Source: Chlamydoabsidia padenii
Lineage: Eukaryota; Mucoromycota; Mucoromycetes; Mucorales; Cunninghamellaceae
NCBI GenBank assembly: GCA_025330725.1
Contig: JAIWND010000031.1
Location: 124,001-188,000 of the forward strand
Reading direction: 5' to 3'
DNA: 64,000 bases
Position 1 is the first letter of the stretch. Each line of letters begins with the position of its first letter. The notes under the pieces are model-generated. The model did no database searches, had not been told where the DNA came from, and worked only from the letters and a program-made list of their open reading frames with translations. A program made the translations under genes and the position numbers. Of the stretch, positions 5,430 through 63,028 are shown piece after piece.

Positions 5430-7083
5430 ATGGAAAATGACAACAACATGGAAAGAGCTAGGGAATCGATTTCCACTGTCTGTGACCATGTTGAACCCTA
5501 TGAACAAACATCCCAAGTGAATGAGCTTGAATCTAAAGAAGTTGCTCACCGTATGTATACAAATTCCCAAAACTTTTTTTTTTTTTTTTTTTTTTTTTTA
5601 CCCACTGATGCCATCGTCCTAAAGAACATGAACTGATCTGTCTTTTTATATATATATATATGTATATATGTTTATGACATTTTTTTTTTTCATGGTATAT
5701 AATAGAAGATCCAAAAGACATTGAAAGTAATGGCCCGTCACCTTCTATACCTCCATTGGATGGAGGGCGAGGGTGGTGGGTGATCTTGGGTGCCTTCTTT
5801 ATTCAAGTGCTTTGCTTTGGGGTGGCCAGTTCCTGGTAAGAGAGCGGGATTTGAAACGTCTCGTCTTTTTTTTTTTTTTTTCGCTAACCCTTTTTTAAAC
5901 TGTTTATTGGATTCATTTCAGGGGTAAGTTGTTGCCATCTGGATACACTCGGTCTCTTTAACTCGTGGATATATATATATATATATAAAGTATACTCACT
6001 TTATGATACAAAAACAAAAACATTATGTTTTTTTTTTCGGGCCATACTACTATGCTATGATCACTTTTTTTTCTTCTTCTTTTTTTAGGTGTGATGCAAG
6101 ATATTTATGAAGAACTCTTTCATGATGTGACAGATGTACAATTTCAATTAAGTTTTGCTGGTACTATCATGGAAATGATGGTCAATCTTTGTGGCATTCC
6201 TGCACAGCTTATTTTGGCTCGGTTTGGTATGAGAGTGTTACTACTCTGTGGCTCTTTTTTGGCTGTCATTGGATTAGAAATGGCTGGATTCTCCTCTCAG
6301 GTAAATAGAGAGAGAGAGAGAGGGTGATTAAACTAGAAATAATCTTTGTCTCCGTTTATAGATCTGGCATCTTTATCTTTGTCAAGGTGTAGGTAGGTTT
6401 TTAAAAGTCCCGTCGGGATGTAAATTGTTTTTTTTTCTAAAAAGGACAGTGGGGTCTCAATTTTCTTTTCTTTCTTTCTCTTCCAAATATTAATGGTCTA
6501 CTCAAGTCTTTGGTGCCGGTGCATCGCTTCTCTATTGCACAGGTAAAAAAATAAAATAAAAAAGGTCAACTAATATAGAAAATCTTTGAACAGAAAACTA
6601 ATACATCTTTTATCGATCATAGTCATGAACACAGCACCCAAATGGTTTGATAAGAAACGTGGATTTGCCATGGGTCTAGGTAACTTGAAAATAAGTATAG
6701 AGACAATCCCACTTGACATGGTTTTATGTTTTTATAGCAAGCTCCGGTTCTGGCTTTGGTGGTCTTATATTACCCTTCATCCTTAATGCTGTCAACAGCA
6801 ATCCTTCACTTGGTGTTGGTTGGGCGTACCGTATTCTTGGGTTTATTGTTTTGGCTTGCTGTATTGGTGCCTGTTGCCTAGTGAAAGAACGTATGAAAGC
6901 CCCAAAACAATCGAAACAACTAAAGGATATCTTTGATTTCTCAGCGCTCAAGGATCTTAACTTTTTACTTTGGATGGTTGGGTCTATGATCGGTCTATGT
7001 GGTTTCTTTGTCCCCTTCTTTTTTTTACCTTGTAAAGTGTAGATGGAATGAAAAAGAAGGTCTGTTACTAATACCAATTCTCT

Positions 7084-7127
<44 letters not shown>

Positions 7128-7687
7128 CTTACGCTCGTCATATTGGATTAAACCCGGAACAAGGATCAGCATTGGTAGCAGTATTATCGACGGGTAATCT
7201 ATTGGGTCGACCTCTGGTAGGATTCACAGCAGATAAGATTGGTCGTTTGAATGCGGATATCATTTGGACTATTTTATGTGGTCTTAGCTCTTTACTCATC
7301 TGGACTTTTGCCTCTTCGTATGGTGTGTTGATGGCTTTTTGTATTGTGTTTGGTTTATTCTGTGGATCTTATTTTACTCTATGTAAGTAAAAGAAAACGA
7401 ATCAAAGTATAGTATATACTAAATCCTCTCTTTCTCTTTGTTTGTTAGTTTCCCCGATCACTCTTGATCTTGTTGGTTTCGAACGTTTCCCTACTGCAGT
7501 ATCTGTGTTATTGATGTCTAATATCTTCTCTGTCTTTGGTCCAAGTATTGCCAGTGGTATCCAGGTCCATGTGGAAACTCCCTTTTTGGTTTACAAGATC
7601 TTTACAGGATTTACCTATGTCTTGGGTGGGCTTATTTTATTGGTATTGAAGATTAGAATGACTAAAAGTCTATGGGCTAGAATATAA
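5430..7687 (+). CDS. MFS monocarboxylate-transporter-like protein (MCT family)
   Basis: Ten exons: 5430-5550, 5706-5835, 5922-5923, 6089-6300, 6362-6392, 6507-6542, 6623-6679, 6738-7031, 7128-7382 and 7449-7687. They sum to 459 codons (458 residues) and close exactly in frame. After an acidic N-terminal tail comes the MCT signature DGGRGWWVILGAFF, then about 12 hydrophobic segments. The loop motif PLVGFTADKIGRLN matches the MFS G-x-x-x-D-x-x-G-R signature. The family moves monocarboxylates or related organic acids across membranes; the substrate here cannot be told. The third exon is only 2 nt, but it is needed for frame and for the conserved W-G of helix 1. The last-but-one intron holds a long poly-T tract. 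Confidence 0.85.
5922..5923 (+). other. Apparent 2-nucleotide micro-exon of the MFS transporter gene
   Basis: The two bases GG lie between a good acceptor (ttcatttcag) and a good donor (gtaagt). The flanking introns are 5836-5921 and 5924-6088. Including the exon turns TG + GG + GT into Trp-Gly and restores the reading SSWGVMQ, which matches helix 1 of MCT proteins (S-Y-G-V-F type). Skipping it shifts the frame. Confidence 0.6.
7046..7125 (+). repeat. Poly-T tract in transporter intron
   Basis: A run of about 38 T with few interruptions forms the polypyrimidine tract directly before the acceptor at 7126-7127. Many introns in the window have similar but shorter T runs. The length may be unstable or wrongly assembled. 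Confidence 0.7.
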
Positions 7688-7926
7688 TATAAATAAATAA
7701 AAATCCCAGTTATTTTATGCCGACTCTTTTTTATTTTAATAGTGTATAAATGCGTTGGCTCATTCAATGGTAATACTTGATCTCTTGCATAAACTGACAA
7801 GATCTCATGTGGATTATTTTTAAATCCCGTGCATTCCATTTTTATTTCAATTCCCGCATGATATCAAAAACATCCACTGGATGCCCCTCTTTTTCGACTT
7901 TATTCTAGCATTACCCATTGGAAGCC

Positions 7927-61100: not shown

Positions 61101-61152
61101 TTCCATGATCTCCAGAATGTCTCGCTCCAAATCCTCTTATGTCAAGGACTAG
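58143..61152 (+). CDS. Rap/Ran-GAP domain protein (Rap1GAP-like)
   Basis: Exons 58143-58406, 58471-59445, 59506-59680, 59757-59888, 59957-60086, 60150-60256 and 60317-61152 close in frame at 872 residues. The GAP domain lies at about 415-640: FGLLTVQGNQESENEWFSN, the loop EGKEIMLHVGPLMPYN, HRKRYIGNDIVCLVF with the N-D catalytic asparagine site, and FLHVFIVVHPE. In the family an Asn, not an Arg, completes GTP hydrolysis by Rap-type GTPases. An acidic run (59217-59262, about 14 Asp) lies in the N-terminal part. The C-terminal 230 residues are Ser/Thr-rich. Exon 6 needs a GC donor. The substrate could be a Rap/Rsr1-like GTPase; the Ras gene near 29 kb is not shown to be it. Confidence 0.9.
60257..60316 (+). 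other. GC-AG intron 6 of the Rap-GAP gene
   Basis: The donor is TTAAAAT|GCAAGT and the acceptor TTTATATAG. The junction gives LLLKLVSAENAAL, matching the family pattern LLTKLINAENAA. The GT four bases on gives the wrong frame. Confidence 0.85.
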
Positions 61153-61650
61153 TGGATACCCCCCCCCACTTTTTTTACACTGGTTATAAACCCCTTCTTT
61201 TATTATTATTTACTTTACTCTTATATTAAAAAAAACATACAATAAAGATATGGCGTTGTGGTAGGCGATTGGATTACATATTATGCAAATATCTTTATCA
61301 TGCTTGTAGTTGGGGTTTACACTTGAGACTAACATTGTGCAAATGCAGTTGAGGTAGATCAATAGTTATATTTATATAACCTGGTTTTTATTATCGAGAC
61401 AACAGTAAAAAAAAAAAGGAATAGTAAGATAATAATAATAAAGTAATAAACAATGTGGAACAATGTCCGTAAAAAGTGACTAGAAGAAAGGTGTGTGTGT
61501 GTGTGTGTATATGGAGAGCTATTGTAAACGAGGACAAGTTATAAAATGATGATGGACAATGAAGAGTATATGAAGATGATGATAGAAATAATAGTAACAA
61601 ACCTGTAATAAAAATAAAAAAATAAAAAACAGTAAAAAAAAAGTATATGT
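61153..61650. other. Convergent spacer, Rap-GAP and G-alpha 3' ends
   Basis: AT-rich with AATAAA near 61241 and a (GT)n run near 61491-61509. No gene is seen. Confidence 0.6.
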
Positions 61651-63028
61651 CTACATTAACCCAACATCTCGCAAGTTTTCATGCACTACAATGGAATTGA
61701 TGGCAGACATGACAAATGTGATTTGTTTTGTATCAGTAGCACAGGTAAAATGGGTATAGACTTGTTTCGTATCAGCACGGGTGTTAAGTTCGACAAAGCG
61801 TTGTAAAAGATATTGACAGGCTGCATCGTACCGATCCCCACCAGTGTAATCATCAAAGTAATTGGACATGGGCGATTTGACAATCTTTTCCGCAAATAGA
61901 TCGATCTTGTTGAGGAAGAGAATGATAGATGTTTTGATAAACCAGCGTGAATTGCAAATCGAGTCAAATAGAGTGAGTGATTCTGATAATCGATTCTATA
62001 TATAATAAAATAAAAAAAAAACAGTTAAAAGGAGGAGGAGGGGGGATGGGAATGATATAAAAGTAACTTACCACTGTTTCATCTTCAAACAAGACTTGAT
62101 CGTATTCCGAGATGGCTACCATAAACAATACAGCTGTACATGATTCAAAGCAATGGATCCTAATATATAAACCTTATTTAGTACTCTATCAATTCAATAA
62201 TGTTTTGGATGGTTTACCATTTTTTTCGTTCAGATCGTTGACCCCCAACATCCAACATGCGATAAGTTAAATCACCGATTGAGAAGGTTGTTTCCGTGAT
62301 GCCTGTTGATTTGACTCGAGATCTCAAGACATCTTGATCACTTGGCATATAGTTAGGTTGTCCAATTCGTAATATGGAATCAAAGTAACTAGTAACAGTA
62401 ATAGTCATTAGTAAAAGGCAATCTTATTTTTATAATTGACCAACTTACTATTTTGCAGAATCATTCAATTGGAATTCATTCGATCGTTCCACACAACTCT
62501 TGACAGCAGGATCATCCCAAAGAGCAGCAATAGCTTCCACCAATTCATGAGCCAAATAATCCACTTGAGGATGTGCTTCCATAACCAAACGTCGATAAGT
62601 GTCATTACCAGGATGTTGAAAAGGAATGTTCAGTGTGTCCATTGCTTCCAATGTCACCCGCATCGATTGCATCGTGTTGGAGAAGATGACCTCTTTAAAT
62701 GTTTCCCGTTCTTCAATCGTAAAACCACCATCATGAATTAATTTCATTTGACGAAGAATGGTGGATTTGCCCGATTCTCCTGCACCTATAGATAAAGTTT
62801 GATGAGTTGTCATTCTCATTTCCGTCATGTTCAAATCCCGCCCACGACCTATTTTTTTTTTTATTCCTTCCACCTCGTGCCACCCCCCCCCCCAATCAAC
62901 CCTACTTTACCTAGTAAAAGCATCTTGATTTCGGATTTCATGTGTATGCGATCTTGTTTGATTTGGGTTTCGATTTCTTGGTGGCGTTGTTTTTCTTCCA
63001 CCCGCTCCGCAGAGAGACAGCATCCCAT
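61651..63028 (-). CDS. Heterotrimeric G protein alpha subunit
   Basis: Five exons (63028-62911, 62785-62449, 62388-62218, 62159-62072, 61995-61651) give 352 residues, the normal length. The N-terminus MGCCLSAE carries myristoylation and palmitoylation sites. All nucleotide-binding motifs are present: GAGESGKSTILRQMK, the switch-I stretch RVKSTGITETTF, DVGGQRSERKKW, FLNKIDLF and TCATDTKQ. It couples seven-helix receptors to cAMP or MAP kinase pathways. The C-terminus is ENLRDVGLM: the Cys of the pertussis-toxin site in Gi/FadA types is replaced by Val, so it is not of the plain group I kind. Intron 1 contains a motif copy. Confidence 0.95.
62829..62841 (+). promoter_or_regulatory. Best-matching copy of the dispersed TTCAAATCCCGC motif
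   Basis: GTTCAAATCCCGC in intron 1 of the G-alpha gene. It also fits the consensus of a Pol III B box (GTTCRANNCC), though no tRNA fold surrounds it. Other copies are listed in the findings. Confidence 0.45.

Follow-up and report, generated by a model that had tools for sequence, protein, structure and literature searches.

The window analysed here, a stretch of 64,000 nucleotides from the mucoralean fungus Chlamydoabsidia padenii (assembly GCA_025330725.1, contig JAIWND010000031.1, positions 124,001 to 188,000), possesses numerous copies of a short motif that recurs throughout the genome, mostly outside coding sequence (CDS). The double-stranded element, WTTTNAAAYNCCGMY, is probably the binding site of one abundant, putative nuclear protein that would sit between nucleosomes in the manner of the general regulatory factors (GRFs) of the Reb1/Abf1 type; such a GRF-like mode of action is moderately supported. 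Bound in the gap between nucleosomes, the putative protein would keep a nucleosome-free stretch open and form a barrier against which the neighbouring nucleosomes would be set. A role in the core promoter is predicted where a site lies 50-125 bp before the start codon, as is the case for about one in three of the genes that could be tested. In the remaining spacer DNA and in longer introns the sites would be distal modules, some of them with a second factor at the word TTCATGC, and neighbouring modules would tend to be separated by whole numbers of nucleosomes.

Sequence and abundance of the motif

Words were counted over the complete assembly (34,228,448 bp, i.e. 34.2 Mb), with the same pattern read backwards ("reversed") as chance control. 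The motif was refined on 264 kb, comprising the window and 200 kb of contig C2, a sample that is unbiased with respect to the motif; the full sample of 333 kb adds loci that were fetched because they bear it. Overlapping loci (L008, L010, L014, L016, L017 and L018) were left out, and the promoter, pair, density and period counts additionally omit L029, which overlaps L028, and the 611 bases of L009 that overlap L007. A repeat family described below carries the motif and is real, and its unit sites were therefore masked before the promoter, pair, partner-motif and base-composition counts of the sample, with margins of 20, 60 or 300 bp depending on the test. In most counts a site is a match of at least 12.5 bits on the refined matrix; thresholds of 11.5 and 14 bits were used besides in the period tests.

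The literal consensus TTSAAAYCCCGM has 4782 matches genome-wide (2377+2405), against 11 (3+8) for the reversed pattern. The matrix refined on the 264 kb reads W-T-T-T-N-A-A-A-Y-N-C-C-G-M-Y, with a sharp core of 12 bp in which TT.AAA and CCG are near-obligate. This refined core, TTNAAANNCCGM, matches 118 times in the 264 kb and once when reversed, which extrapolates to about 15,000 copies genome-wide, or roughly one per gene. Once simple repeats are set aside, CGGGATTTGA is the highest-scoring 10-mer of the sample. The motif is thus real and genome-wide. Its frequency is far beyond chance, as the first-pass annotation had supposed for the window, and it has the abundance and specificity of a GRF site.

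Position relative to genes

Genes were predicted ab initio by a small finder whose training set was the sample itself. In these models introns have a median length of 72 bp and about 55% of the DNA is coding; some of the long introns may be misread spacers. The 264 kb contain 191 sites, 15 in CDS, 33 in introns and 143 in intergenic DNA. Per kb this amounts to 0.10 in CDS, 0.82 in introns and 1.81 in intergenic DNA, so that predicted coding DNA is almost free of the motif. Tandem, convergent and divergent spacers are similar (1.6, 1.9 and 2.1 per kb). Introns longer than 120 bp carry 2.0-2.2 sites per kb, those of 60-80 bp 0.13 per kb.

A distinct class of sites is found about 90 bp before the start codon. 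With gene models scoring below 25 or possessing less than 130 bp of free upstream sequence omitted, a site in either orientation is present 50-125 bp before the ATG in 42 of 117 models. The bin of 80-100 bp has a density of 8.9 per kb, that of 100-120 bp one of 5.0 per kb, and the two together 7.0 per kb (34 sites in 4,870 bp, Poisson p 7e-12); farther upstream, at 120-400 bp, the density is 1.64 per kb, with single bins between 0.5 and 3.2. Between 40 and 120 bp upstream, 24 sites point in the direction of the gene and 20 in the opposite direction. A pyrimidine-rich tract usually lies between the promoter site and the ATG, as judged by eye from the printed alignment. A preferred upstream position that is used in either orientation is what a GRF site would possess. 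The promoter-proximal class exists beside sites of other kinds, and the earlier statement that the motif is not simply a promoter box is right; convergent spacers and long introns carry sites as well.

Spacing between sites

In genome-wide counts, pairs of sites in opposite orientation keep quantised distances. In a first pair histogram, pairs were few at 40-180 bp and their number bulged around 215 bp. Over the whole assembly, opposite-orientation pairs are present in 38 matches at gaps of 195-225 bp (34 distinct places), flanked by troughs at 100-130 bp (8 matches, 7 distinct) and 280-310 bp (16 matches, 13 distinct). A second peak at gaps of 350-380 bp and a second trough at 435-465 bp were forecast from the sample, and the genome-wide counts in opposite orientation are 109 against 40 matches. 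These correspond to 80 distinct places among the 100 listed of the 109 second-peak matches, and to 33 among all 40 trough matches; duplicates from the two strands were collapsed by script for both peaks and the 435-465 bp gap, and by eye for the gaps of 100-130 and 280-310 bp. The binomial p is 2.5e-5 for 34:7, 0.003 for 34:13 and 1.1e-5 for 80:33. Of the 80 distinct pairs listed for the second peak, 12 share a span of exactly 385 bp, suggestive of a repeated arrangement; without them 68 places remain (68:33, p = 6e-4). The repeat-unit model does not match the one readable 385-bp pair, at C2:356762. Two listed second-peak places, C18:263251 and C28:94973, overlap places of the repeat family, so that some repeat contribution to the second peak remains.

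In the masked 333 kb, 10 pairs lie at 45-180 bp, 30 at 180-255 bp, 6 at 255-345 bp and 40 at 345-500 bp. The smoothed pair density of the sample has maxima at 220, 360, 530-560 and 690 bp and minima at 280, 460 and 650 bp. The best period of the full sample is 170-175 bp: none of 1000 jitter nulls is as high at 11.5 bits, p is 0.01 at 12.5 bits, and against random placement it is 0.027. The 264 kb alone, tested for pairs against a label-matched placement null with the 300-bp margin around repeat units, possess two exclusion zones, at 45-180 bp (8 pairs, 23.9 expected, 0 of 2000 nulls as low) and at 255-345 bp (5 pairs, 13.1 expected, p 0.014), and hold 25 pairs at 345-500 bp (20.3 expected).

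The unit behind this spacing would be the nucleosome, with a repeat length of perhaps 150-180 bp. When d = a + n*b is fitted, the offset a amounts to 20-45 bp, in keeping with a widened linker rather than a dyad. Together with the promoter position at -90, these extra 20-45 bp favour a location of the sites in linkers, where binding could open chromatin. Pairs only 20-45 bp apart are commoner per base than pairs at 45-180 bp (6 at a threshold of at least 12.5 bits and 13 at one of at least 11 bits, masked), and are perhaps two sites in one gap.

Sequence around the sites

Base composition was profiled around 246 noncoding sites, five of them duplicates from overlapping loci (241 without overlap). 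GC content drops to 0.318 at 90-120 bp on both sides (null 0.356, z -4.6 and -4.8), and this dip falls about half-way between neighbouring sites. AA/TT/TA/AT dinucleotides follow a rhythm of 10.5-11 bp in phase with the site, with up to 5.6 times the mean power of 60 nulls, which would suit rotational positioning of nucleosomes. The proposal of a regulatory or nucleosome-positioning site, one of several in the first-pass annotation, gains support from the peak before start codons, the quantised genome-wide spacing and the use of both orientations.

Several observations weigh against a linker site of a GRF-like protein. Same-orientation pairs number 120 genome-wide at gaps of 195-225 bp, 8 at 100-130 bp and 20 at 280-310 bp (reversed controls 0), but 59 of the 100 listed at 195-225 bp are, by eye, the dispersed tandem repeat; because the repeat family inflates this orientation, the same-orientation counts were not used for the main claim and opposite-orientation counts were taken instead. 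The period of the full sample is not significant at the strictest threshold (14 bits, p 0.107). Taken by themselves, the 264 kb contain 15 pairs at 180-255 bp against 11.8 expected (p 0.23), and no significant period is found there at any of the three thresholds (p 0.066, 0.53 and 0.93). The period is strengthened by loci that were selected for carrying the motif. As the unbiased 264 kb have the exclusion zones and no significant peak or period, peak and period rest on the genome-wide counts and on these motif-fetched loci. The gene models, furthermore, are ab initio and were made within this analysis. Finally, nucleosome cores are usually richer in GC than linkers, and the AT-rich mid-point between sites is contrary to this; whether the sites are in linker or core phase is not settled by the sequence.

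The partner motif TTCATGC

A second dispersed motif, ATTCATGC/GCATGAAT, accompanies many main-motif copies at a distance of no more than about 25 bp. ATTCATGC is another prominent word of the sample that is not a simple repeat, and is found near the main motif on either side. Genome-wide, TTCATGC followed by TTNAAANNCCGM within 3-23 bp occurs 568 times (286+282), against 27 occurrences (14+13) at a distance of 80-100 bp from TTNAAANNCCGM and none for the reversed pattern. Of the occurrences of ATTCATGC within 110 bp of a site, 38 fall around the 159 sites whose distance to a start codon exceeds 250 bp, and 11 around the 83 nearer ones; these sample counts retain a few places counted twice through overlapping loci. 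The strict TTCATGC word was seen once within 120 bp upstream of start codons. Copies in the window are the following:

12449..12455, - strand, TTCATGC beside site 12462
49527..49533, - strand, TTCATGC near site 49498
53995..54001, - strand, TTCATGC beside site 54004
57396..57402, + strand, TTCATGC beside site 57406

Sites in the window

The window holds 40 sites of at least 12.5 bits. The first-pass annotation had counted about 21 copies, and a recognisable variant is indeed present within a few bases of each of these 21 places. Eighteen reach 12.5 bits, whereas those at 14923 (9.1 bits), 26069 (11.2 bits) and 55379 (12.3 bits) score below; the count itself was too low, as 22 sites had not been listed. 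The literal TTSAAAYCCCGM matches nine times in the window, the remaining listed places being variants only. The claim that no copy lies in an exon is almost correct: of the 21, only the one at 34038 falls within CDS, in a low-scoring model, and the other 20 do not. The core-motif sites are:

5318..5329, + strand, TTCAATCGCCGT, 14.0 bits, spacer, 106 bp from the ATG of a low-scoring model
5844..5855, - strand, TTCAAATCCCGC, 18.8 bits, intron
6413..6424, - strand, 13.3 bits, intron
7819..7830, + strand, 13.1 bits, intron
7846..7857, + strand, 17.0 bits, intron
12317..12328, + strand, 18.8 bits, convergent spacer
12462..12473, + strand, 13.4 bits, convergent spacer
15313..15324, + strand, 13.9 bits, divergent spacer
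15703..15714, - strand, 17.4 bits, divergent spacer
19518..19529, - strand, promoter-proximal, 16.5 bits, 89 bp from ATG
22000..22011, + strand, 16.9 bits, convergent spacer
25192..25203, + strand, promoter-proximal, 13.9 bits, 80 bp from ATG, 236 bp to next site
25428..25439, + strand, 15.6 bits, 236 bp from 25192
25735..25746, + strand, TTGAAACCCCGA, 16.9 bits, intron
26445..26456, + strand, 13.2 bits, intron
28187..28198, - strand, 15.2 bits, spacer
29912..29923, + strand, 13.3 bits, intron
33691..33702, + strand, 18.3 bits, spacer
34038..34049, + strand, 19.1 bits, within low-scoring CDS model
34612..34623, + strand, 16.2 bits, intron
35184..35195, - strand, 22.7 bits, divergent spacer
44136..44147, - strand, 16.6 bits, convergent spacer
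44168..44179, - strand, 15.5 bits, convergent spacer
44815..44826, + strand, 15.1 bits, intron, 198 bp to next site
45014..45025, - strand, 18.2 bits, in CDS model, 198 bp from 44815
45838..45849, - strand, 16.1 bits, in CDS model
46401..46412, - strand, 20.8 bits, spacer
49272..49283, - strand, 14.1 bits, spacer
49498..49509, - strand, 18.6 bits, spacer
52737..52748, - strand, 15.2 bits, between divergent genes, about 79 and 110 bp from start codons
54004..54015, - strand, 17.1 bits, intron, 213 bp from 54217 with a weak site between
54130..54141, - strand, weak site, 12.9 bits, spacer
54217..54228, - strand, weak site, 12.9 bits, spacer, 213 bp from 54004
54631..54642, - strand, 19.8 bits, spacer
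54954..54965, - strand, 14.1 bits, spacer
55071..55082, + strand, TTCAAATCCCGC, 17.8 bits, spacer
55644..55655, + strand, 16.1 bits, shortly after a repeat-family unit
57406..57417, + strand, 14.6 bits, spacer
57966..57977, + strand, 17.8 bits, spacer, 171 bp from ATG
62830..62841, + strand, TTCAAATCCCGC, 19.9 bits, intron

Besides these sites, the window possesses 57-bp tandem repeats at 41073-41933 (41073-41519 and 41668-41906, with 114- and 171-bp multiples), which lie inside a large open reading frame with an Mcp5-type PH domain at its end. One PPR protein encoded in the window shares 72% identity with a protein of Absidia glauca and 65% with one of A. repens, which marks the fungus as kin to Absidia within the Mucorales.

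Alternative readings

The motif could be the site of an ordinary, very abundant transcription factor, i.e. an activator with thousands of targets that acts at promoters and, together with the TTCATGC factor, at enhancer-like modules. No dedicated chromatin role would be needed, and the spacing would mirror the presence of one accessible gap per linker. The promoter peak and the composite with TTCATGC are in line with such a factor, and a single site per gap accounts for the shortage of pairs at 45-180 bp. A general role is nevertheless suggested by the extrapolated frequency of about one copy per gene, by comparable densities in spacers between convergent genes and in long introns, and by the lack of a clear orientation preference, and we regard the ordinary activator as unlikely.

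A remnant of a mobile or tandem element, namely a short repeat that has decayed and sets the spacing through its unit length of about 235 bp, is a still poorer candidate. A dispersed tandem family does exist: its units comprise about 196 model positions with a period of about 235-240 bp, occur singly or in short arrays, begin with the main motif where complete and contain a strongly conserved block, GATGCTAATGA. It is present in the window, in L001, L003, L004, L006 and L015 and in the C2 sample, and has two representatives in the window:

49310..49399, + strand, partial repeat-family unit, E 1.7e-21, masked in the spacing tests
55451..55619, + strand, repeat-family unit without the first 20 model positions, E 1.5e-44

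In three loci the family has no Rfam match (E up to 1), and 13 units yield no convincing RNA consensus fold (-0.98 kcal/mol; both sides changed in 5 of 17 pairs). The same-orientation pairs that resemble the family by eye, the recurrent 385-bp pairs and the two second-peak places overlapping family members speak for a contribution of such an element. As a general explanation, however, it meets with 48 aligned copies whose flanks share nothing past the core and the next few bases, six of these copies being members of the repeat family; for this one family alone, similarity extends well outside the 12-bp core. The search for the family converged at 32 unit matches in the sample, yet 232 unmasked noncoding sites are left in the 333 kb. 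Unlike a head-to-tail repeat, moreover, the 30 unmasked pairs at 180-255 bp occur in all four orientations (7, 10, 5 and 8). The conserved end of a decayed short element, as proposed at first, is therefore not the general answer.

A B box of TFIIIC, or an extra-TFIIIC site, had likewise been suggested. TTCAAATCC resembles GTTCRANNCC, and the C2 sample has three tRNA genes, of which one reaches 10.9 bits. The other two score 6.4 and 1.9 bits. The B box fixes G53 (before TTC), C56 and C61, but in the motif the base preceding TTC is G in only 6% of sites, and positions 3 (C56) and 8 (C61) are degenerate. Scans of the window for tRNA genes and Rfam families yielded no tRNA gene and no match at the Rfam gathering threshold. 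The base frequencies speak against the suggestion, and a B box is very improbable.

Equally improbable is a cell-cycle site of the E2F or LIN54/CHR type (GCGGGA plus TTTGAA), although GCGGGATTTGAA combines the CHR hexamer TTTGAA with a half that resembles an E2F site. The consensus sequences are TTTSSCGC for E2F and TTYRAA for LIN54/CHR. However, 67 of the 118 core sites read TCGG instead of GCGG, which breaks the E2F core with its GCG, and 27 of 118 read TTTCAA or TTTTAA, without the purine of TTYRAA. Some 15,000 extrapolated copies, furthermore, seem far too many. A search of the genome for the CXC domain (PF03638) gave no match, but its controls were equally silent.

Least credible is a DNA methylation motif, with N6-methyladenine (6mA) or 5-methylcytosine as a mark in linkers: 6mA is located between nucleosomes in ciliates, Chlamydomonas and other eukaryotes (PMC12695648), but the contexts described there for Mucorales comprise VATB, which includes ApT, for Phycomyces and AAAACA for Mucor (PMC11258239), and an ApT at position 7 is not constant here, being absent from 51 of the 118 cores (T in 67 of 118). 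B box, E2F, CHR/LIN54, 6mA motif and short interspersed or decayed element were all set aside on base frequencies and flanks.

Significance

A stronger form of the GRF-like reading can be put forward only tentatively, and we consider it doubtful. The genome would encode a nucleosome ruler, in which one protein and its TTCATGC partner punctuate most of the non-coding DNA and selection keeps the sites whole nucleosomes apart. The layout of arrays and gaps would then be legible from the sequence, and the 235-bp repeat would be a ready-made unit of a site plus one nucleosome.

To our knowledge, barrier factors that set nucleosome arrays are known mainly from Ascomycota. If the GRF-like reading is true, the motif would provide a handle on chromatin layout in early-diverging fungi and a test of whether GRFs are a common fungal solution with replaceable proteins. 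Nucleosome repeat length, promoter position and distal modules could be read out from the sequence in a lineage with few genomic tools. The identity of GRFs is described as turning over between yeast lineages, e.g. from Cbf1 to Reb1 (PMC2897762), and Reb1 and Abf1 as barriers to nucleosome sliding (PMC12305957). Among the matches listed from the open-access literature in PubMed Central (PMC), no title or abstract beginning deals with the main motif or TTCATGC in a fungus; of 21 papers that contain one of five string forms of the main motif, the 20 listed look unrelated by title and abstract beginning (tRNA, human and mouse cell studies and others). No open-access PMC paper contains two of four TTCATGC words as whole words.

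Comparison with known systems

The TFIIIC B box and extra-TFIIIC sites have TTCAAATCC in common with the motif, which lacks their fixed G53, C56 and C61. The CENP-B box of alpha-satellite DNA is a motif within a nucleosome-scale repeat unit; its likeness is to the 235-bp dispersed family, whereas most sites described here lie outside that family, in spacers and introns. Linker 6mA of ciliates, algae and others would resemble the motif as a periodic mark between nucleosomes (PMC12695648). It is, however, a base modification at ApT that occurs mainly downstream of transcription start sites, and here a 12-bp motif is located in spacers and introns. The closest likeness is to the GRF sites of budding yeast (Reb1, Abf1, Rap1 and Cbf1), which are short, specific sites upstream of genes as well, and whose factors keep gaps open. 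Budding-yeast GRF sites are also abundant and indifferent to orientation, as is the motif here. In contrast to them, successive copies here keep distances that would be nucleosome multiples, and have a partner motif; the motif itself differs from the yeast sites in sequence, and is dense also in convergent spacers and long introns.

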